IMG/VR virus record: IMGVR_UViG_3300031749_000025
Location: 1-31,569 of that record
Length of the DNA stretch: 31,569 nucleotides
Origin: a virus
Direction: 5' to 3' (one strand)
Shown here: positions 11,560 through 22,488 of the stretch, in pieces
Numbering within the stretch: position 1 is the stretch's first letter
How the letters are laid out: each line of letters opens with the position of its first letter
The notes under the pieces: generated by a model
What the model saw: the letters and a program-made list of their open reading frames with translations, nothing else
Told to the model about the DNA's origin: nothing
Databases searched by the model: none
Program-made: the position numbers and the translations under genes

Positions 11560-12063
11560 ATGGCAACCTGGACACCTGACCCGGCAATCATCCCCTGGCT
11601 GGAGGTGGTGGCCAACGCCACCTTCGTCGCCGCGCCCATTGTGGCCGTCGACGAGAACGGCACACCGGCCAGCCACTACGACTTCGAGATCGTCGGGCCG
11701 CGGCCCAAGATCATCGGCCTGCAGGTCAGCCAGGACGAAGCAGGGTTGGTGATCGCCGTGCCGCAAGTCATCACGGGCCTGTATCCGCCGGTGGAGATCG
11801 AGTACCAGACGCCGCTGGCTGACGGCAGTCGGCAAACCGGTTTTTGTTGGGACTTCCCGGAGATCCCGGTGGAGGCCGACGAGATCATCTGCTTTACGCC
11901 GCGTAAGGAACCCTCGCTCGACTGGACGTTGCGGGTCACGGCGTACTTTGCGCAGGGCTCAGACAGCGCCGAGTTCATCCTGCGCGTGCACGCCGACTGG
12001 ACACCGGGGCGCGATGCATTGAAGGAGGCTGTTGATGCCCGCCGTCACGAAGCTCGGGAGTGA
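11560..12063 (+). CDS. unknown baseplate-region protein, 167 aa
   Basis: ATG 11560 follows GAGGTGATGG, 8 nt after the V stop. The protein is beta-rich (NATFVAAPIVAVDENGTPAS, then YDFEIVGPRPKIIGLQVSQDE, LDWTLRVTAYFAQGSDSAEF) and looks like one or two immunoglobulin-like or beta-sandwich domains, ending in a charged helix (GRDALKEAVDARRHEARE). I recognise no family. It lies between the spike shaft (V) and the PAAR tip and overlaps the PAAR start by 29 nt, so a role in the central spike or in loading the tip is suggested by context alone. Confidence 0.72.
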   Translation: MATWTPDPAIIPWLEVVANATFVAAPIVAVDENGTPASHYDFEIVGPRPKIIGLQVSQDEAGLVIAVPQVITGLYPPVEIEYQTPLADGSRQTGFCWDFPEIPVEADEIICFTPRKEPSLDWTLRVTAYFAQGSDSAEFILRVHADWTPGRDALKEAVDARRHEARE

Positions 12064-12322
12064 GTGCTCTGGCCACGCGTGTTGGCCACCCCGGCCCAAT
12101 ATCCAGGGTTCGCCCAACGTCTTCGTCAATGGTATCGCGGCGCACCGGCAAAGCGACGCCTGGGCCACGCACTGCTGCGGCAAGTCCTGTCACGACGGGA
12201 AACTCGCCGCCGGCAGCAGCACGGTCTACTGCAACGACCTGCAGCTGTGCCGCATTGGCGATCCGGTCAGCTGCGGTTCGGTAGCGGCCAGTGGGAGCCA
12301 GAACGTCTTTGCGGGTGGGTAG
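12035..12322 (+). CDS. PAAR-domain spike tip protein
   Basis: The product is 95 aa; ATG 12035 is preceded by GAAGGAGG, and the frame overlaps the previous gene. The sequence contains the PAAR hallmarks: GSPNVFVNGIAAHRQSDAWA, a second half-repeat LAAGSSTVYCNDLQLCRIGD, then PVSCGS and a final GSQNVFAGG. Eight cysteines and several histidines (HAC, AHRQ, THCCGKSCH) provide more than enough ligands for the metal that stabilises the cone. PAAR proteins cap the V-type needle and sharpen it for membrane piercing. The family is also used in type VI secretion, but the phage context here is unambiguous. Confidence 0.9.
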   Translation: MPAVTKLGSECSGHACWPPRPNIQGSPNVFVNGIAAHRQSDAWATHCCGKSCHDGKLAAGSSTVYCNDLQLCRIGDPVSCGSVAASGSQNVFAGG

Positions 12323-13651: not shown

Positions 13652-15226
13652 ATGACATCGGATCACCTGCTGCCGCCCAATGCCACGGCGCTGGAGCGTT
13701 CGCTGTCGATCTCGACCGATCTGCTCACACGCCTTGCCGGTGATACCGAGGCGCTGGCTGGCTTCAAGACCGAACCCAGCGACAGTCTCTTGCCTTGGCT
13801 GATCTGGGAGTACGGCCTGGGCGAATTGCTGCCATACCTACCCGATCCTCGCCGGGCCATTGCCGAAGGCATCCGCTGGCAGCGCTTGCGCGGTACCCCG
13901 GCAGCACTCACGACCGCCTTGTCGTGGATCGGTGCGACCGCCACGGTCGAGCAGGAAACGCCCGGCATTCACTTTGCCGAGTTCCAGTTCGATCCAGGTC
14001 AGGTGCTGGATGACGATGGAACCATCGCCAACCTGATCGCCATTGCCCGGCTGTCGGCACCAGCCCGATCCCGACTGTCCCGCATCTACCACGGCTGGGA
14101 TCTGCGCCGTCTGGTGCCGGGTGAGAGTCGGCTGGGCGAGGCGCTGCTGTCGGATCACAGTGGCGTGTTCTGGCGGGATGGGCAGACCAAGTTGTCGTTT
14201 GGGCGAGGTTTCGCGCAGAACGCGCTGGCATCCGGACAACAGATCGCGCCGAACCGTGAGGCCGTGCGTTTTGCGGTGGCCCGCCTCATCGACCGTTACC
14301 TGCTCGACTTTTCGGCGCTGGGCGATCCCGGCCACACGCCCAACGAGGAAATCCTGCACTCGCATCTCTTCACACTGGCCAATGCGCGGGGGGTGCCGAA
14401 TGCGACCACCTTGCTGCCCGAACGCCGATTTGCACGGGCGATGGTGGTGCTGTCCGACAGCACGCCTTTGGGCGACATCAACGCCAACCTGCCGCGCTTT
14501 GCCTGGCAAGAGTTGGGTAAAGCAATTTCACTCGGTGAGGGCGATCTCTTGTCTGCCACGCCACACCAGCTCATTCGTGTGGAGGTGCTGGAGCGATTTG
14601 CTCGGGGCCATCCGGGCGACCTGGTCGTGCCAACCTTGAGTCTGCTGGCCCACCGCGATCATCTCGCTGTTCACCGTGTCCAGGCCCGCGCCGATCAGTC
14701 GCTGGGGATGTGGGCCTTGGGCGAATCGGTACCGAGCCTGGACCGGGGCTTCGTGCGCCGGGATCACACCCGAGGCAACTTGGGGCTGCCCGATGCCGCT
14801 GGCTGGCGGCCACGCCTTTACCAACGGGCGCAGGTGGTGCTCAGTGAAGTCATTCTGGGCGAGGTCAATACCCGCACGCCCCGGCGAGCACTGTTGCGCA
14901 CCCGACCGCTGCCCACCCTGGGCGATCTCACCTTGGGTGGGGCCGCTGAGATCGAATGGCGGCCACTCACCGAGATGCAAATTTGCATCTCTGGCCTGAC
15001 CGAGAACTTGCCCTATGTCTTCGACGACGCCCGCCCGAGCCTTTTGCGCCTGCTGACCCGTAGCGCTGAAGCCGACACCGCTTCACAAGTTTCTCCCGCA
15101 CGCGTGCCGGTCCTCAGCACCCGCGCTGCTTGGAGCGGCCAGACCTGGACCGGCGTGCGCTGGCCGACTTCAAGCTGGACCGACACCCGCGAGCTGATCG
15201 GCGCGACACATCAGACGCTGAACTGA
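13652..15226 (+). CDS. I: tail protein I, P2 type, enlarged with a repeat region
   Basis: The product is 524 aa; ATG 13652 follows CCAGGAGGG. Residues ~1-170 match P2 gpI (LLPPNATALERSLSISTDLL, SLLPWLIWEYGL..., AEGIRWQRLRGTPAALTTAL, SWIGATATVEQ), the wedge protein that links J to fibres. P2 gpI is only 176 aa. The remaining ~350 residues show imperfect repeats, for example ARAMVVLSDSTPLGDINANL against RAQVVLSEVILGEVNTRTPR, each with LG(D/E)(I/V)N. The extension probably forms a beta-rich arm for the fibre module; that is inference from repetition and position. Confidence 0.85.
   Translation: MTSDHLLPPNATALERSLSISTDLLTRLAGDTEALAGFKTEPSDSLLPWLIWEYGLGELLPYLPDPRRAIAEGIRWQRLRGTPAALTTALSWIGATATVEQETPGIHFAEFQFDPGQVLDDDGTIANLIAIARLSAPARSRLSRIYHGWDLRRLVPGESRLGEALLSDHSGVFWRDGQTKLSFGRGFAQNALASGQQIAPNREAVRFAVARLIDRYLLDFSALGDPGHTPNEEILHSHLFTLANARGVPNATTLLPERRFARAMVVLSDSTPLGDINANLPRFAWQELGKAISLGEGDLLSATPHQLIRVEVLERFARGHPGDLVVPTLSLLAHRDHLAVHRVQARADQSLGMWALGESVPSLDRGFVRRDHTRGNLGLPDAAGWRPRLYQRAQVVLSEVILGEVNTRTPRRALLRTRPLPTLGDLTLGGAAEIEWRPLTEMQICISGLTENLPYVFDDARPSLLRLLTRSAEADTASQVSPARVPVLSTRAAWSGQTWTGVRWPTSSWTDTRELIGATHQTLN
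14972..14991. other. 20-bp perfect palindrome inside gene I
   Basis: GAGATGCAAATTTGCATCTC is a perfect palindrome in the coding part of I (codons for EMQICIS). It is unusually AT-rich for this region and shares GCAAATTTGC with the intergenic palindrome at 12353-12368. Confidence 0.5.
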
Positions 15227-15289: not shown

Positions 15290-15982
15290 ATGGCCATCCT
15301 GACTGCCAGCGGTCGCGCTGCGCTTGCCGCCGCGATCAAACAACAGACCTTGCACCTCGCCCTGGGCGAGGGCGATCCGCTGTGGGACACCACCCGCGCG
15401 ATCAGCACGCCCTTTGACGAGGCGGGTGTGATCGAGCTGGGCTTTACGCACCTGGCCGATATTCGCGTCACCTCGCTCGATGGCCAGACCGAGTACCTGC
15501 TCGATGTGGACTACAGCGCCAACGCCCGCGAGGGCGTGATCCGGCGCCTGCCTGACAGCACGATTCCCGAAGGCGGTGACGTCACGGTCCACTTCAAGAT
15601 TTCGCACCCGCCCGAGTCGATTGGCCAGACGGTGCTGCTGCGCGAAGTCGGCCGCCGAGTGGTGGATGAGGTGCATTTCGTTGCCGCCGACCCCGAGGGC
15701 GAGATCGTCGTGCCGACTGGGCGCTATCGGCTCAGCGCTGATCCGACCAACCATCTGTTCATCCGCGTGCGTTTCGACTTCGAGGACGCCGCCACCAGCG
15801 TGGTGCGCGAGCAAGGCCTCTTCGTCGGCACCCAGACCGATCCCGCTTTGCCCATCGGGCAGAAGTTTTTCATCCCCGCCCAGATCACCGATCCGGGCAT
15901 TTTGCTCGTGCTGCAGAACTCGGTGCCCATCGTGCGCCAGCCCAGTACGCGCGAGACCTTCGAATTCGTCGTCACTTTCTAA
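15290..15982 (+). CDS. putative baseplate-fibre junction protein, 230 aa
   Basis: ATG 15290 follows CTGGAGCACCCG; an upstream in-frame ATG at 15254 lacks an RBS and falls in the spacer. The N terminus MAILTASGRAALAAAIKQQT resembles the opening of several phage tail/fibre proteins, followed by LHLALGEGDPLWDTT. The rest is beta-rich with a late block (VVREQGLFVGTQTDPALPIG, then QKFFIPAQITDPGILLVLQN). The gene directly precedes the DUF4815 gene, with 15 nt between. It sits where P2 has fibre gene H, but it is far too short for a fibre, so an adaptor is the most likely role. Confidence 0.7.
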   Translation: MAILTASGRAALAAAIKQQTLHLALGEGDPLWDTTRAISTPFDEAGVIELGFTHLADIRVTSLDGQTEYLLDVDYSANAREGVIRRLPDSTIPEGGDVTVHFKISHPPESIGQTVLLREVGRRVVDEVHFVAADPEGEIVVPTGRYRLSADPTNHLFIRVRFDFEDAATSVVREQGLFVGTQTDPALPIGQKFFIPAQITDPGILLVLQNSVPIVRQPSTRETFEFVVTF

Positions 15983-15997
15983 ATCGCGAGGCCACCC

Positions 15998-18900
15998 ATG
16001 ATCGAGCGTTACTACAACCTGTTTGACCCGGCCAAGCACTACACCCAGCTCTTGTTCCGCGCCGGCGATGGCCTGCAGTCGCGGGAACTCAACGAGATCC
16101 AGACCACCCTGATCCACCGCTTGCAGGGCGTGGCCGATGCGCTGCTCAAGGATGGCGACATCGTCAGCGGCGCCAACCTGCAGATCGATGCCGACACGGG
16201 TCTGGTCACCCTGGAAGCCGGCCGCGTCTATCTGCGCGGCGCGGTGCGGGACGTCCCGGCAGCCACCTTCACGGTGCCGACCACCGGCCGCATTGCCGTC
16301 GGCGTGCGCTTTACCACCCGCACCGTCACCGAACTCGAAGACCCCAGCCTGCGCGAACCGGCGGTGGGCGTGCGCAACTACCAGGAGCCGGGGGCCGGTC
16401 GTCTGCAGGAGACCATCGCCTGGGGCTGGGAAGGTGCGGGCACCAGTGACGGTCAGCCCGGCGACTTTCACGCCATCTATGCGCTGGACAATGGCATCCT
16501 GGAGAATCGCACTCAGCCGCCGGTGCTCGATGGCGTGATTGCGAGTCTGGCGCGCTACGACTATGACGCCAACGGCCACTACGTGACCGAAGGGCTGGGC
16601 GTCCGATTCCTCAGCACCGATGCCGATGCCCAAGAGCACATCTTCTCGGTCGCCGAGGGCCGCGCCAACATCGACGGCTTCAAGGTCGAGCGCAGTCAGT
16701 CGCAGCGCCTGCGTCTGCCCATCGACCCGGATCTGCAGCGGGTGTCCTCGGAACCGCAGGTCTTCAATGACTCGGGCGATGGTTCGATGGTCGTCACGAT
16801 CAACCGGCCACCGCTGGCTCAGGTGCTCGACATCAAGGTCACCCAGCAGAAGACCGAGACCGTTGCACACGGCGCCTTCACCGGCAGCCGCGATGTGCTC
16901 ACCGAACCGACGGTCGTCGCCGTGCTGGAAGTCAAGCAAGGCACGACCACCTACACCCAAGGCAGCGACTACAAGGTGGTAGGCGACGAGATCGACTGGA
17001 GCCCGGGCGGTGCAGAGCCGGCACCCGGATCGAGCTACCAGGTCACCTACCAGTACATCGCCAGCATCACGCCCACCGACTTGACCGACACCGGCTTCAA
17101 GGTGGCGGGCGTGGTGCAGGGCTCGACGATGTACATCGACTACCTGTGGAAGCTGCCGCGCGTGGATGTGCTGGCGCTCACGGCTGACGGCCAGGTCGAG
17201 CGCATCAAGGGCATCAGCCAGGTGAGGAACCCCGTCGCACCCACGGTGCCGGCCTCGCGCCTGGCCTTGGCCGAGATCGCCTATGACTGGAAGCAGGACA
17301 GCACTCCCGAAGTGCGCAACATCGCCATTCGCACCATCAAGGTCTCGGAACTGACCGCGATGCAGCGCCAGATTGCCGACCTGTATGACCTGATGGCACT
17401 GGAGCGCCTGCGGGTGGACGCCAACATCCGCGAGCCCGCCGCCAAGAAGGGGTTGTTCGTCGACAACTTTCTGGATGACGATCTGCGCGACCAGGGCGTG
17501 GCGCAAACCGGGGCGATTGTGGCCGGTGTCCTCACCTTGCCGATCACGGCATCCGCCCAGCACGCCAAGGAGAACGGTAATGCGCTCATCACGCTCGACT
17601 ACACCCTGACGCCGGTGATCGAACAGTTGGCCCGCACGGGTTCGATGAAGATCAACCCTTATCAGGCCTTCGAGCCGGTGCCGGCCCGGGTGACGCTCAA
17701 TCCGGCCGTCGACCAGTTCACGGTGACGAACACCACCTGGGCGTCCGACGTCACCGAGCGCCTGGTCATCGGCAGCGGCGTGCTCGAACAGGTGCTCGAG
17801 ACCCGACGCTCGGAACAGGTGCTGGCCTCCTCCAGCGAGAAAGCGCAGTTTCTGCGCAGCCTCAATGTGGCTTACACCGTTACCGGATTTGGGCCGAATG
17901 AGCCACTCAGTGAGCTGCGCTTCGATGGCATCGGTATTCCGCAGCCGCCCGGCACGGCAGCCAATGATGCTGGCCTGCTCACCGGCAGCTTCCAGATCCC
18001 GCAAGCGATTCCGGCGGGCGCGAAGTTGGTCGAATTCCTGGGTGCCGGCGGTAGTTACGGTTCGGCCACCTATGTGGGGCGCGGCCAGATCGTCACCGAA
18101 ACCCGTCGCCGCATCCTGACCACGGTAGTGCGTCGCTGGGACCCGCTGGCGCAGACCTTCACGCTGCCCGAGCGCCGCACCATCGGCGCTCTGGAGCTGT
18201 GGTTCACCGCCAAGGGTGGCTCGGCTCCCGTGATCGTGCAGATCCGCGAGACGCAGGTCGGCATCCCGACCACCACGGTGCTGACCGAAGGCCGATTGCT
18301 GGCGTCCGACATCAAGACCGATGGCAACCCGACCCGCATCACCCTCGACCCGGTGGCGCTCGACGCCAACCGCGAGTACGCCATCGTGGTCCTCACGGAT
18401 GACGCCGAGCACGCCGTGTCGGTAGCCGAGCTGGGCAAGTTTGATCCGCGCACCGGCTGGGTGACGGCGCAGCCCTACCAGATCGGCGTGCTGCTCTCGT
18501 CCTCCAACGGCAGCACCTGGACGCCGCACCAGACGCAAGACCTGACTTTCCGCCTGTTGGCCTGCCGGTTCACGCAGACGAGCAAGACCGTCTCGCTGGG
18601 CCAGTACACGGTGACGAATCTGTCGGATGTGATGGCGCTCGCGGGCGTCGAGCGTCCGGCCGCCGGCACCGATGTGCAGTTCCTGGTGACCGATGCCCAG
18701 GGGCGGATCTACACCTTGTCGGAAGACCAGGGGTTGGCCTTGAGCGAGAAGCTCTCGGGCAACCTGGCGGTGTCGGCCAAGCTGACGGGCACCGAAGTCG
18801 CCAGCCCGATCCTCTACCCGGGCACGCAGCTGGTGTTTGGAACGCTGGAAGCCGCTGGCGACTACCTGTCGCGTGCGATTCCGGCTGCTGCCACCTTCAA

Positions 18901-19159
18901 TGTGTCGGTGACCTTCGAGGCGCTGACGCCTGGCATGTCCAGCGTGACGGTGCAGGCCGAGTCCGGTACGTCGGGCAGTTTCCAGACGTTGTCCTTGTCG
19001 TCGGGCGTGGAGGTGGGCAACGGCTGGGTGGAGCGTACCTACAAGGCCGCCAGCCTTGTTGGCGTCGGGGCGGATCGCACCACGCGCGTGAAGCTGGCGT
19101 TGTCCGGCAATCCGCAGCACCGACCCTTCGTGCGCAACCTGCGCGTCATCGTCACCTGA
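15998..19159 (+). CDS. large DUF4815 tail protein, 1053 aa
   Basis: The N terminus (MIERYYNLFDPAKHYTQLLF, then RAGDGLQSRELNEIQTTLIH, RLQGVADALLKDGDIVSGA) is the DUF4815 hallmark, seen in large phage structural proteins near baseplate and fibre genes. Downstream the chain is beta-strand rich with repeated sandwich-like modules (a DVLTEPTVVAVLEVKQGTTTY region near residue 300, VIVQIRETQVGIPTTTVLTE near 745, NVSVTFEALTPGMSSVTVQA near 970) and no membrane segment. It is the largest baseplate-side protein and likely forms the fibre trunk or distal baseplate. Host specificity is not demonstrated. All neighbours share its frame, which explains the long antisense open frame opposite it. Confidence 0.88.
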   Translation: MIERYYNLFDPAKHYTQLLFRAGDGLQSRELNEIQTTLIHRLQGVADALLKDGDIVSGANLQIDADTGLVTLEAGRVYLRGAVRDVPAATFTVPTTGRIAVGVRFTTRTVTELEDPSLREPAVGVRNYQEPGAGRLQETIAWGWEGAGTSDGQPGDFHAIYALDNGILENRTQPPVLDGVIASLARYDYDANGHYVTEGLGVRFLSTDADAQEHIFSVAEGRANIDGFKVERSQSQRLRLPIDPDLQRVSSEPQVFNDSGDGSMVVTINRPPLAQVLDIKVTQQKTETVAHGAFTGSRDVLTEPTVVAVLEVKQGTTTYTQGSDYKVVGDEIDWSPGGAEPAPGSSYQVTYQYIASITPTDLTDTGFKVAGVVQGSTMYIDYLWKLPRVDVLALTADGQVERIKGISQVRNPVAPTVPASRLALAEIAYDWKQDSTPEVRNIAIRTIKVSELTAMQRQIADLYDLMALERLRVDANIREPAAKKGLFVDNFLDDDLRDQGVAQTGAIVAGVLTLPITASAQHAKENGNALITLDYTLTPVIEQLARTGSMKINPYQAFEPVPARVTLNPAVDQFTVTNTTWASDVTERLVIGSGVLEQVLETRRSEQVLASSSEKAQFLRSLNVAYTVTGFGPNEPLSELRFDGIGIPQPPGTAANDAGLLTGSFQIPQAIPAGAKLVEFLGAGGSYGSATYVGRGQIVTETRRRILTTVVRRWDPLAQTFTLPERRTIGALELWFTAKGGSAPVIVQIRETQVGIPTTTVLTEGRLLASDIKTDGNPTRITLDPVALDANREYAIVVLTDDAEHAVSVAELGKFDPRTGWVTAQPYQIGVLLSSSNGSTWTPHQTQDLTFRLLACRFTQTSKTVSLGQYTVTNLSDVMALAGVERPAAGTDVQFLVTDAQGRIYTLSEDQGLALSEKLSGNLAVSAKLTGTEVASPILYPGTQLVFGTLEAAGDYLSRAIPAAATFNVSVTFEALTPGMSSVTVQAESGTSGSFQTLSLSSGVEVGNGWVERTYKAASLVGVGADRTTRVKLALSGNPQHRPFVRNLRVIVT

Positions 19160-19171
19160 TGGGGGTGAGCG

Positions 19172-19378
19172 ATGACCCAGGAGCGCACGCCGCGCGGCTA
19201 TCCGCTGCCGCACCCCGAGCACCTGCTGTCTGAGGACGTCCTCAACCTGCGTGAAGCCCTCACCCGCATCGATGCGGATGTGGCCGCGCAGGAGGCGTCC
19301 ACGCAGCAGGGGCAAGACCAACTCACCGAACGGCTGCACCGCCAGCAATTGCGGGTGTTTCACCAGTTCGGCTTTTAA
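19172..19378 (+). CDS. small unknown protein, 68 aa
   Basis: ATG 19172 follows GGGGGTGAGCG, 12 nt after the DUF4815 stop. An N-terminal extended segment (MTQERTPRGYPLPHPEHLLS) is followed by one long helix (DVLNLREALTRIDADVAAQE, then QGQDQLTERLHRQQLRVFHQ) with heptad character. A short helix-forming protein between fibre components may be a trimerisation or attachment piece, or a chaperone. No family is recognised. Confidence 0.65.
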   Translation: MTQERTPRGYPLPHPEHLLSEDVLNLREALTRIDADVAAQEASTQQGQDQLTERLHRQQLRVFHQFGF

Positions 19379-19390
19379 GGAGCACACCCC

Positions 19391-19885
19391 ATGGCCAAAG
19401 ACCCCTTGCTGCGCGATGCGGTGCGCGCGATCAAAGCCAAGATCGAAACTGCCGCCGAGATCGCCACACCCGAAGAGCTGGCGTATCTCGGCACCGCCAT
19501 CGACCGCATCGGTGGGCGCGCCACCGTCCTCGAGGTCGAGGAGATGGGTGACATCAAGATGGCGGAGATGTCGGCGCACGCGACCGCCGTAGAGACAGCG
19601 ACGCTCGACACCATTGCCACGGCCGCTGATGTGGCCATTGCCAACGTCACGGCGGCCAAGACAGCGGCCGAGACTGCGATCACCGCCACCAAGACGGCAG
19701 CGGAATCCTCGATCACCCAGACCAAGGATGCGGCCCTGGCGGTGATGGCGCAGACCGAGACCAGCACGGTGGCGACCGTCAATGCGGCAGCCCAGACCGC
19801 GATCCAGCAGGCGGCGGCTGCCGCCAACAGCGTCACCCAGCAACTGGTGCTGGGGCGCAAGACCTTCTTCCTTGCCCAACTCTAA
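19391..19885 (+). CDS. Ala/Thr-rich coiled-coil protein, 164 aa
   Basis: ATG 19391 follows AAGGAGCACACCCC. After a short N-terminal part (DPLLRDAVRAIKAKIETAAE), residues ~55-150 are a nearly unbroken run of Ala and Thr with heptad spacing (TAAKTAAETAITATKTAAES), ending with QQLVLGRKTFFLAQL. This pattern forms long trimeric coiled coils in phage fibre shafts. It lies 12 nt after the 68-aa gene and 12 nt before the next, inside the fibre module, so a fibre shaft or linker is the best guess. No enzymatic motif is present. Confidence 0.7.
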   Translation: MAKDPLLRDAVRAIKAKIETAAEIATPEELAYLGTAIDRIGGRATVLEVEEMGDIKMAEMSAHATAVETATLDTIATAADVAIANVTAAKTAAETAITATKTAAESSITQTKDAALAVMAQTETSTVATVNAAAQTAIQQAAAAANSVTQQLVLGRKTFFLAQL

Positions 19886-19897
19886 GGAGCCCCCTCG

Positions 19898-20209
19898 ATG
19901 TCCATTCTGGGAACGGCGCTGCCAGCCGCCAATACGCTGGCGACCCTCTACGAAGTGCCCACCGGCCGCCGCGCGGTGGTCAATGTCGCCGCCTGCAACA
20001 AAGGCACGGCGGCTGCCAAGGTGCGCATGGCGCTCACCGCCTCGGCCACACCAGCCGAGAGCGAGTTCATCGAATTTGATGTGAGCCTGGCGGCGACCGA
20101 GGTGCTGGAGCGCACTGCGCTCTCCTTGGCTGCGGGGCAGAAGATCGTGGTGCAGGCCAGCGCCGCCACGGTCAGCTTCAACGCCTGGGGCATTGAGGAG
20201 GTGGCGTAA
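19898..20209 (+). CDS. small beta-rich fibre-module protein, 103 aa
   Basis: ATG 19898 follows TAAGGAGCCCCC. The sequence (MSILGTALPAANTLATLYEV, PTGRRAVVNVAACNKGTAAA, then VLERTALSLAAGQKIVVQAS) resembles short phage proteins with a single beta-sandwich, often placed next to tail fibres; I cannot name the family. The stop TAA overlaps the start of the next gene by 1 nt (TAATG), suggesting coupled production with the 470-aa protein and perhaps a shared complex. Confidence 0.7.
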   Translation: MSILGTALPAANTLATLYEVPTGRRAVVNVAACNKGTAAAKVRMALTASATPAESEFIEFDVSLAATEVLERTALSLAAGQKIVVQASAATVSFNAWGIEEVA

Positions 20210-21621
20210 TGGGACGTTATCTATCCAATCCGCTCGGCCGCAGTGACGGCCCCGTGAGCGATGTGCGTTACGCCGTGTGCAACTTCGGGGGCAGCGGGGG
20301 CAGTTACTACCGGCTGCTTGATGGCGACTTCAAACCGGCGCGCCAGATTCCGAATCTCGCGCCCGCGATGGCGCCCATCTCGGTCAGTGGCTACGCCTCC
20401 TACGGCACCGTCCAGCCTTCGGGGCTGGGGGTTTCGTTCGACCCGGTGTTTGCGCTGGGCGGTGCCTGGTCGGGACCGGCCAACACCAACGGCAACTCGT
20501 ACTACTTCGACGGTGCCCAACAGCAGGCCATCAATTTTGGTGGTGCCACCACCGCCCCTGGCAACAGCAACAGCAACTTCGACCACTACACCGGCCGCTG
20601 CGGCGAGTTCGGTCATGACCGCTGGAACCTCGACAACCGTGGCGCGATCCTGCTGCCTCAGCGCAGCCCGACCTTCGGGCTGGAGACCAAGACCGAAGCG
20701 AACGATGCCTTCGTCAATGGCGATCTGGCCGATGGGAGCCTCACGCTGCTGCTTTGGAACGGACGCCTGTATCTCACCCGCCGCACTGAGGTGGAAACGG
20801 TGGTGGTCTCCAACGGCGCCAGGGGCTGGATCAGCCGCTTCACCGTCGCGGGGCTGCCCAACGGCTACTATGGCACGGCGTCCTACAACCGCACCCGCAA
20901 CGAGCTCGTCATCCTGGGTGGCAGTTCCGCCACGTCCAGCAGCGGGATGTGGCTGCGGCTGTACCGCAATCTGCCTGTGCTCGACGAGACCAGCAACCTG
21001 GAGACCATCCTGTCGGCCATCACGCCGCTCGAGGTGGCGATCACCTGGTCGGGCTGGACGCCGGCGGCCAATGCCGAAGCGGTCGGTGGCGCCACACCCG
21101 TGCTCACCGACAACGGAGACGTGTTCGTCGGCTTCTTCAACGCTGGTTCGGCGCTGTATGTGGTGCGATTCCAGCGCACTGGCGACACGACGTTTGGCAC
21201 GCCATCCAACCACGTGTCGTATGGCGTGACGACCAGCTATGGCAGGCACAACGCCCGGGGTTCCGGGATGCAGGTGATGCAGACCCGCGATGGCAGCACC
21301 GTGGCCTTCTACAGCCAGTATTACTACTACGGCGCAGGCCTGGGGGTCATCACCGTCAACAAGCGCTCGAGCAGCGCCCGGGTGATGTACGCCGACAGCC
21401 AGACCTCGGACGGTCGCAGTCTGCTGCACTGGGGTGCGTCGGGTTTTGCGGTGGCGTTCAATGCGTCGGGCAGCTACAGCGCGGCCAGCAGCGGTGCGGT
21501 GTACGGCTACGACTGTGCGGTGCAAACCGCTACCGTGTCCCCGTCGCAAATCGTGCTACCCATTCCCAACGGCTACAACACCGGCGGTACCTATCCGTTC
21601 TATGTGGAGGTGAACCTGTGA
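20209..21621 (+). CDS. putative receptor-binding tail fibre protein, 470 aa, unrecognised fold
   Basis: ATG 20209 overlaps the previous stop. The sequence is rich in Gly, Ser, Asn, Tyr and Trp and almost devoid of long helices: NFGGSGGSYYRLLDGDFKPA, FDHYTGRCGEFGHDRWNLDN, FYSQYYYYGAGLGVITVNKR. Regular strand spacing and repeated short motifs (GYASYGTVQPSG, GYYGTASYNRTRNELVILGG, VLTDNGDVFVGFFNAGSALY, SGAVYGYDC) suggest a beta-propeller or beta-helix. It is the distal large gene of the fibre module and is followed by a small coupled gene, as fibre and chaperone pairs often are. I recognise no named family. Receptor binding is inferred from composition and location. Confidence 0.68.
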   Translation: MGRYLSNPLGRSDGPVSDVRYAVCNFGGSGGSYYRLLDGDFKPARQIPNLAPAMAPISVSGYASYGTVQPSGLGVSFDPVFALGGAWSGPANTNGNSYYFDGAQQQAINFGGATTAPGNSNSNFDHYTGRCGEFGHDRWNLDNRGAILLPQRSPTFGLETKTEANDAFVNGDLADGSLTLLLWNGRLYLTRRTEVETVVVSNGARGWISRFTVAGLPNGYYGTASYNRTRNELVILGGSSATSSSGMWLRLYRNLPVLDETSNLETILSAITPLEVAITWSGWTPAANAEAVGGATPVLTDNGDVFVGFFNAGSALYVVRFQRTGDTTFGTPSNHVSYGVTTSYGRHNARGSGMQVMQTRDGSTVAFYSQYYYYGAGLGVITVNKRSSSARVMYADSQTSDGRSLLHWGASGFAVAFNASGSYSAASSGAVYGYDCAVQTATVSPSQIVLPIPNGYNTGGTYPFYVEVNL

Positions 21622-22070
21622 TGAATGTCTACTTTGACATCCGAAACGGCCACATTGCCGTCATCGAAACCGACACCCCCGAGCCCGGCTGGATCAAGCT
21701 GAAATCTACGCAGTCGCGGCTGGCTGTGCGCTATCGCCTGGATGATGATGGCAAGGTGGTGGACGCCTATCCCGGCAAAACCGATGAGGAGGTGTTGACC
21801 CTCATCGCTTCGGAACAAGCAGCCCAAGTCGTGGCTGCTCCATCCCAGAAGGTCATCACCAAACTGGCCTTCATGAACCGCTTCACGATGGAGGAGCTGG
21901 CGGCCATCTACACCGCCGCCAAGACCGAGGTCATGGTTGAGGTGTTCTTCGACAAACTCAAACTGGCCGAATACGTCGATGTCACGGACCCGCAGACCAT
22001 TGCCGGGGTGCAGGCGCTGGTGTCCAAGGGCCTCTTGACCGAGGCCCGCGCCCAGGAGGTGCTGAAGTGA
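21621..22070 (+). CDS. fibre-module protein, putative assembly factor, 149 aa
   Basis: ATG 21621 overlaps the fibre stop (TGATG), with GGAGG upstream. The N-terminal half (MNVYFDIRNGHIAVIETDTP, then EPGWIKLKST, LDDDGKVVDAYPGKTDEEV) is a short beta-rich domain. The C-terminal half (KLAFMNRFTMEELAAIYTAA, LKLAEYVDVTDPQTIAGVQA, LVSKGLLTEARAQEVLK) is helical and resembles a module shared by many phage proteins encoded right after fibre genes. A fibre chaperone or minor tail component is plausible; no experimental basis is visible. Confidence 0.65.
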   Translation: MNVYFDIRNGHIAVIETDTPEPGWIKLKSTQSRLAVRYRLDDDGKVVDAYPGKTDEEVLTLIASEQAAQVVAAPSQKVITKLAFMNRFTMEELAAIYTAAKTEVMVEVFFDKLKLAEYVDVTDPQTIAGVQALVSKGLLTEARAQEVLK

Positions 22071-22387: not shown

Positions 22388-22419
22388 TCGCCCCGTCTGA
22401 CCTCGCCTCACGGCCGCAG

Positions 22420-22448
22420 AAATCCGCCAATGGGCGGATTTTTTTTTT
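22420..22448 (+). terminator. intrinsic terminator at end of the fibre module
   Basis: AAATCCGCC (22420-22428) pairs with GGCGGATTT (22433-22441) around AATG, running into ten Ts (22439-22448). It is 33 nt after the stop of the membrane-protein gene. Both strands have A/T runs, so it could work in either direction. Confidence 0.88.
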
Positions 22449-22465: not shown

Positions 22466-22488
22466 ATCCGCCGCTTGGCGGATTTTTT
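22466..22488 (+). terminator. second terminator-like hairpin abutting the sheath RBS
   Basis: ATCCGCC (22466-22472) pairs with GGCGGAT (22477-22483) around GCTT, followed by six Ts (22483-22488). The stem sequence repeats that of the first terminator. GGAGA (22489-22493), the sheath Shine-Dalgarno, starts on the next base. Confidence 0.78.

Follow-up and report, generated by a model that had tools for sequence, protein, structure and literature searches.

A probable split tail fibre whose tip gene is exchanged among related phages

Separate adhesin tips, beta-propeller receptor-binding proteins and fibre-chaperone modules shared between phages are already known. In the gp38 adhesins of the T4 superfamily the tip is a polypeptide of its own. 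Here we analyse a block of seven genes, P1 to P7 (15290-22070), in the viral IMG/VR record IMGVR_UViG_3300031749_000025; the whole record, 31,569 bases, is the window of this study. Taken as a whole, the block is likely a tail fibre divided into separate polypeptides and accompanied by a mount and a chaperone. That the fibre is split is, within this explanation, very probable.

In gp24 of phage Pam3 a helix shaft, a TNF-like beta domain and a glycine-rich tip are united in one chain; its chaperone, gp25, has a non-conserved N-terminal beta domain and a conserved C-terminal helical domain (PMC9608196). The order of parts and the anatomy of the chaperone recur in the window as P4, P5 and tip and as P7, yet separate genes take the place of the single chain. 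P5 and P7 have no profile match to a solved phage chain. Gp38 of Salmonella phage S16, a separate, glycine-rich receptor-binding polypeptide at the end of the shaft (described in PMC9608196), has the separate tip in common with the window and the glycine richness in common with one class of tips, type C below. Unlike gp38, the tip of the window appears propeller-like, is encoded behind a P5-type connector gene and starts with Met-Gly-Arg. A beta-propeller is present in Gp45, the receptor-binding protein of Staphylococcus phage phi11 (PMC4901313), where, unlike in the window, stem, propeller and tower form one chain. The Alteromonas phages A5 and V22 have a tail fibre and cognate chaperone that are common to unrelated phages (PMC10579305). 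There the shared unit is the whole fibre with its chaperone, whereas the group of the window exchanges only the tip and the N-terminal half of a chaperone-like protein.

The DUF4815 (VrlC) region of Wolbachia phage WO contains P1, DUF4815 and a stand-alone P3 in the order of the window; a single 458-amino-acid (aa) gene with a P4-like start stands where the window has P4, P5 and P6. The closest named relative of the window is AcaML1 (JX507079), a temperate phage of Acidithiobacillus caldus which shares the tail gene order. Its gp47-gp53 are the same seven genes in the same order. P1 (gp47 in AcaML1), DUF4815 and P6 are 94%, 92% and 92% identical to the window, whereas P3, P4 and P5 reach only 52%, 57% and 58%, and P7 67%. 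Gp51, the counterpart of P5, is labelled 'phage tail fiber-like protein' in the AcaML1 record, and the rest of gp47-gp53 hypothetical.

A sequence-only reading of the window had listed seven genes here, and all seven open reading frames (ORFs) are present at the positions and with the sizes it gave. They are not chance frames, since the same seven genes follow one another in the same order in AcaML1, in sufficiently long viral loci and in Tepidimonas prophages. The intergenic gaps from P1 to P7 are, in order, 15, 12, 12, 12, -1 and -1 nucleotides (nt). The features are as follows.

P1, 15290..15982, plus strand: 230 aa, baseplate wedge / fibre-network adaptor family BW3TFN
P2, 15998..19159, plus strand: 1053 aa, DUF4815 protein
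P3, 19172..19378, plus strand: 68 aa, by homology the N-terminal anchor of a tail fibre, here as a gene of its own
P4, 19391..19885, plus strand: 164 aa, Ala/Thr-rich (26% Ala, 15% Thr), probable shaft
P5, 19898..20209, plus strand: 103 aa, predicted jelly-roll, putative connector between shaft and tip
Codons Met-Gly-Arg, 20209..20217, plus strand: constant start of the tip gene, proposed docking tag
P6, 20209..21621, plus strand: 470 aa, exchangeable tip, proposed receptor-binding protein
P7, 21621..22070, plus strand: 149 aa, probable chaperone with a variable N-half and a C-half that is conserved and looks helical
Left border of the exchanged cassette, 20216..20223: DNA homology with the window ends
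Right border of the exchanged cassette, 21719..21870, inside P7: DNA homology resumes

Exchange of the gene behind P5

A search with P5 found 35 viral loci, 27 of which (L027-L052, L061) carry a P5 at least 77% identical to that of the window. Where the contigs reach, these 27 loci have kept the platform: DUF4815 is 80-98%, P3 65-99% and P4 49-92% identical. The gene that follows P5 is of three kinds. It is P6-like (type A) in three loci, which are contigs already known, of type B in nine and of type C in 13 (three of the 13 genes are open at the contig end); in two loci it is unreadable. Type B proteins, 448-451 aa long, are distant relatives of P6, and types A and B are homologous over 275-426 (hhalign probability 96, E 4e-9). 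Type C is a glycine-rich fibre-type protein unrelated to P6. All three type-C tips scanned match the Pfam family PF21722 (Gly_rich_2) above cut-off as well as tail-fibre PHROGs, whereas P6 has no PF21722 match in Pfam, i.e., no such glycine-rich receptor-binding domain. A fourth tip type, 473-474 aa, was seen in L075 and in Tepidimonas ignava.

The borders of this exchange are sharp. In all 12 loci with another tip that were aligned, DNA homology with the window ends at the left border, just past the Met-Gly-Arg codons with which P6 starts at 20209, and in all 12 it resumes at the right border. The latter falls at 21719-21771 in five type-B loci, at 21855-21859 in six type-C loci and at 21870 in L046. 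Homology thus stops after the start of P6 and resumes inside P7, so the exchanged cassette consists of the tip body and the first part of P7. Judged from these alignments, the comparison shows that relatives swap the tip together with the N-half of P7 by recombination at the Met-Gly-Arg tag and within P7, the platform being retained.

The reverse exchange occurs, too. Tepidimonas prophages have a type-A tip 72-74% identical to P6 next to a DUF4815 protein of only about 51%, and AcaML1 combines its P6 of 92% with P3-P5 of 52-58%. In one strain, Tepidimonas thermarum AA-1, the block is present twice, once with a type-A and once with a type-B tip (L019, L135); T. ignava has a type-A copy and one further tip type. 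The sequence-only reading had taken the short couplings between the genes as a sign of a fixed assembly. The couplings do not show this, since tips are swapped and relatives also diverge in the part from P3 to P5.

P7 varies along with the tip. Compared with the window, its N-half has 18% identity in each of the two type-C rows, 53% and 37% in the two of type B and 53-85% in the seven of type A; the C-half is 54-82% identical in all eleven rows aligned. This is the pattern of a variable N-domain and a conserved C-domain seen in Pam3 gp25, and the C-half of P7 also matches a gene of a Rheinheimera phage that is located two genes downstream of a tail-fibre gene. That P7 is a tip-specific assembly chaperone, not a fibre part, is in our view reasonably likely. 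It would help P6 to fold or to trimerise, the N-half being matched to the tip type and the C-half serving as the assembly part. The best solved match of P7, a MarR regulator (E 0.003), and a match to a SigF NTF2-like domain were taken as chance.

Another arrangement is found in L144, from a Burkholderiales genome. Here an Ala-rich coiled-coil-like gene, P5, a 531-aa gene starting with Met-Gly-Arg, a P7-like gene (40% over 60-148) and a relative of P9, the small gene downstream of P7 in the window (56%), stand in succession. No DUF4815 match was present in the 10.5 kb examined, so the fibre unit occurs without the platform. It seems to pass between tail types.

Putative connector and constant start of the tip gene

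Tail-fibre PHROGs are among the matches of P5 (E 6e-12 and 1e-6), and cyanophages encode relatives of it; the one in Prochlorococcus phage P-SSM2 lies directly after a 'tail fiber-like protein' gene. The AlphaFold2 model is an eight-stranded sandwich with a mean predicted local distance difference test score (pLDDT) of 96.7. It aligns with the trimeric cement protein of phage KHP40 (Z 8.3, root-mean-square deviation (rmsd) 2.8, 97 residues aligned), with nucleoplasmin-like domains (Z 8.4), a Klebsiella phage baseplate chain (Z 8.1) and C1q/collagen NC1 domains (Z 6.5-7.2); the best Foldseek E is 0.005. The predicted sandwich arrangement is common among proteins, so this likeness is no proof of kinship. 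P5 is a stand-alone gene. In 126 of 126 places the frame ends at most 3 residues past the match or at the contig end; ahead of the match it runs without a stop for 30 codons in L035 and for 230 in L046/L070 (one contig), elsewhere for at most 9. Within the order Burkholderiales it is rare (4 of 399 genomes).

The protein encoded after P5 has a constant beginning. The 126 P5 places were reduced to 98: 24 showed a contig or genome that had been counted before, and four were cut by the contig end. In 96 of the 98, cyanophages included, the first residues after the P5 relative are Met-Gly-Arg (MGR, 90) or MAR (6); the remaining two, L129 and L130, begin with MAA (MAADVL). Every tip type of the group starts with MGR. 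Many of the 98 places are near-identical, hence clusters and distinct starts were counted as well. With the first 10 residues removed, the proteins fall into 10 blastp clusters, nine of which start with MGR or MAR, and the products range from 90 to 942 aa; among 52 distinct 12-residue starts 51 have MGR or MAR, 47 of these MGR. As background, MGR begins 5 and MAR 11 of 596 distinct ORFs, which were collected mechanically from both strands and are hence partly spurious. The 51 annotated genes of AcaML1 have Gly-Arg at positions 2-3 in just two cases, gp52, which is the counterpart of P6, and a gene with a GTG start. Further places in Tepidimonas and other Burkholderiales genomes have MGR in eight of eight, including those with P5 relatives of 29-35% identity. 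The ATG used is preceded, at a distance of 1-6 codons, by an in-frame GTG or TTG in 6 of the 98 places (L006, L007, L008, L009, L019, L075).

What is conserved here? The arginine codons of the tag vary (CGN and AGA/AGG), its glycine is encoded by GGN, and the spacing varies too, P5 and the tip gene overlapping by 1 nt at one extreme and lying about 33 nt apart at the other. The tag is kept despite this variation, which argues that the peptide itself is conserved. One may object that the start is a translation signal of overlapping genes or plain shared ancestry of a 5-prime end: in the window P5 and P6 do overlap by one base, and the 5-prime end of the tip gene stays with the platform when the tip is exchanged. 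We consider this rather unlikely, because the tag persists with genes up to about 33 nt apart and with synonymous codons, and holds for nine of ten clusters, for products of every length in the above range and with remote P5 relatives. The chance that P6 mounts on P5 through its N-terminal Met-Gly-Arg we put just short of even. P5, a jelly-roll according to its confident model, would cap the shaft. It might instead be a repeating bead of the fibre, like gp81 of phage A-1(L), whose neck fibres are described as chains of gp81 trimers between gp82 and gp80 (PMC10966104). The small, stand-alone, jelly-roll P5 would suit such a role; the bead model is improbable.

Tentatively, one can go a step further. 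The P5 family may be a general socket at the fibre end, and M-[G/A]-R-x-[I/L/V] an N-terminal plug by which unrelated tips are mounted in very different phages, a proposal to which we give somewhat less credit than to the docking of P6 itself. If it is true, the tips comprise propellers, glycine-rich adhesins and small beta proteins, and exchange amounts to cut-and-paste at the plug codons. Its range would include cyanophages, phages of Acidithiobacillus and Tepidimonas that possess contractile-tail genes, and a prophage stretch of Burkholderiales in which DUF4815 has no match. A constant connector combined with an M-[G/A]-R start common to unrelated tips was not found in the literature searched, which consisted mostly of titles and abstract openings and included few subscription papers.

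The block suggests a natural plug-in system for changing what a virus can grip. Exchange of phage tips often takes place within a single long fibre gene, which blurs the borders and leaves the partners unknown. The tip of the window has a gene of its own with a constant start of three residues; a conserved connector gene precedes it and a matching chaperone-like half-gene follows. This makes three questions approachable: what keeps a separate tip on its shaft, in what way the specificity of the chaperone goes with the tip, and how different tips come to be present, within one host strain, on phages whose bodies are almost identical. In addition, gene families labelled 'unknown function' in many phages obtain probable roles.

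In the cyanophage-like contigs L053-L060 the MGR gene downstream of P5 has a small product (107-290 aa), and behind it are encoded Gly/Cys-rich proteins. The latter may be the real adhesins there.

The protein in the tip slot

P6 is no orphan, as might have been supposed; relatives exist in AcaML1, eight viral loci and two Tepidimonas genomes. Its matches to an acid phosphatase (E 0.04) and to DUF6947 (E 0.02, below cut-off) were taken as chance. Residues about 150-456 model as a beta-propeller, and most fold matches are propellers, among them lectins, sialidases, a GH43 enzyme and the phi11 receptor-binding protein. With the latter (5EFV) residues 153-450 align at Z 8.2 and rmsd 4.6 over 205 residues, a Z value tied with those of many unrelated propellers. 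With moderate confidence the C-terminal half of P6 is thus predicted to be propeller-like. The fold, which the sequence-only reading had called unknown, is therefore probably a known one, seen in phi11. For all proteins modelled here, the true fold may also belong to a class missing from the fold lists.

The same reading had proposed the 470-aa protein as the receptor-binding tip. Its place in a tip slot stands: the gene is exchanged between sharp borders, and glycine-rich fibre-type proteins occupy the same slot in relatives. As with separate adhesins, the tip is encoded apart from the shaft, as is evident from both gene anatomy and exchange; that the two proteins touch would be expected. We regard it as quite likely that P6 is a receptor-binding tip which would bind the host surface.

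Several observations weigh against this view and against the split-fibre explanation at large. Confidence in the P6 model is low (mean pLDDT 52.7): residues 1-166 score below 50, those from 167 onward higher. None of its fold matches is prominent (best Z 8.7). Distant type-A relatives keep P6 at 66-74%, with DUF4815 at 50-52% and P3-P5 at 36-61%. Within type A, P6 is thus conserved above its neighbours, which is the reverse of what a fast-evolving receptor binder would do. The variable part of P6 is the unmodelled N-half and not the propeller: the majority residue per 20 positions in type A accounts for 67-81% up to residue 140 and for 74-95% thereafter. Specificity may, then, lie in the N-half rather than in the propeller. 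P5 has no sequence or profile match to any chain among the solved structures searched, and P7 does not match any solved chaperone by sequence. For AcaML1, neither proteomics of virions nor data on adsorption were found; the single paper examined does not contain the word 'tail'.

Could P6 be an enzyme? A sialidase- or glycosidase-like propeller on the virion surface might degrade host polysaccharide, and the exchange would then mirror different envelopes. Sialidases and the GH43 enzyme are indeed among the propeller matches, and polar residues, e.g., R130, C131, E133, H136 and D137, are invariant in all aligned members of the P6 family. Yet these matches are generic, without an outlier, and include lectins and non-enzymes; neither Pfam nor PHROGs nor NCBIfam assigns an enzyme family to P6; and the proteins of type C, which share the slot, have matches to a glycine-rich domain and to families of tail fibres. 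An enzyme thus has a small chance only. Even less probable is P6 as a structural extension, e.g., a cap, with receptor binding in P4, in the C-terminus of DUF4815 or elsewhere, and with the exchange as neutral mosaicism. The good conservation of P6 within type A would agree with this, as does the comparison with AcaML1, in which P3-P5 differ more than P6. Among close relatives, however, the strongest change is limited to the slot after P5 and the N-half of P7, with DUF4815 at 80-98%, and in 13 of 25 readable loci the slot holds a glycine-rich fibre-type protein. A receptor-binding tip remains the preferred assignment of P6.

Proposed platform, probable shaft and neighbouring genes

P1 belongs to the Pfam family BW3TFN, 'tail fiber network component' (PF25691; E 1.7e-39, 136 bits against a gathering cut-off of 27), and is 48% identical to gwv_1121 of Wolbachia phage WO, the gene that precedes the DUF4815 gene there. 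P2 belongs to DUF4815 (PF16075; E 2.2e-188, 627.6 bits, cut-off 30). It has matches in 1423 of 50,697 phage records, 606 of which cover at least 80% of the query. By family membership, P1 and P2 are baseplate or adaptor proteins, not fibre shafts; together they would form a platform at the periphery of the baseplate which carries the fibre. A relative of P2 with a solved structure is 9euf (E 5e-78), which we take to be a chain of Staphylococcus phage 812. In the literature searched no paper naming PDB entry 9EUF was found, nor a match for 'phage 812 weld/tripod' or 'arm scaffold'; the only paper that came up for DUF4815 together with baseplate deals with Wolbachia genomics. The terms 'fiber network' and BW3 do not occur in PMC10329688 and PMC11042391, nor 'fiber network' and DUF4815 in PMC11948020.

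The block corresponding to P3 is the N-terminus of the fibre gene in Ochrobactrum phage POA1180, Acidovorax phage Alfacinha3 and Microcystis phage Mae-JY30, but in Wolbachia phage WO and Aeromonas phage HJ05 it forms a gene of its own. P3 also matches phrog_20381. The weakest match, to Alfacinha3, is short (blastp E 0.004, 29 proteins searched; phrog_20381 E 0.0013). Homology shows P3 as the counterpart of the anchor which other DUF4815 phages fuse to the fibre, and it would anchor the fibre on the platform here. P4 matches phrog_16274 (E 2.3e-5). The full-length member of this family is the 458-aa gene that WO carries downstream of DUF4815, and P4 resembles the start of this gene. P4 is probably the shaft and would form an Ala/Thr coiled coil, presumably trimeric.

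How does this compare with what had been read from the sequence alone? As to the genes H and G of phage P2, no P2 H/G or tail-fibre-assembly Pfam family was found for P1-P7 at E up to 1. That the module contains no recognisable fibre does not hold, given the tail-fibre PHROGs and the AcaML1 label of P5, the BW3TFN membership of P1 and the fibre N-termini homologous to P3. A multi-component fibre with shaft, linker and tip as separate genes is retained, but P1 and P2 as baseplate or adaptor proteins and the chaperone-like P7 would not count among its parts.

The block is flanked by gpI on one side and by P9 and the sheath gene on the other.

gpI, 13652-15226: 524 aa, Tail_P2_I match in Pfam
P9, 22067..22387, plus strand: 106 aa, small companion gene, phrog_34710 (E 1.7e-48)

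No fibre role is claimed for P9; in L144, too, its relative lies directly after the P7-like gene. The Tail_P2_I match of gpI is confined to residues 7-101 of 524, with a long C-terminal part beyond. Baseplate V, J, sheath, tube, X and D of the window, all P2-type tail genes, each match their own Pfam family. Two tandem hairpins resembling intrinsic terminators lie between P9 and the sheath gene (22418-22443 and 22466-22483); terminator-like sites number three against 0.5 expected in 700 bases scanned. With these two hairpins the transcript of the fibre block may stop at its own terminators before the sheath gene.

In comparison with AcaML1, gpI is 74% and gpJ 90% identical. At the position of the AcaML1 PAAR gene the window (11560-12284) has instead two ORFs of 167 and 74 aa without Pfam match, and the 167-aa ORF has no match in the AcaML1 stretch compared. 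The AcaML1 record seems to have interchanged the names of gp60 and gp61 (32978-34279), which are tail protein X and late control protein D; their counterparts in the window are a 78-aa Phage_tail_X and a 355-aa Phage_GPD protein.

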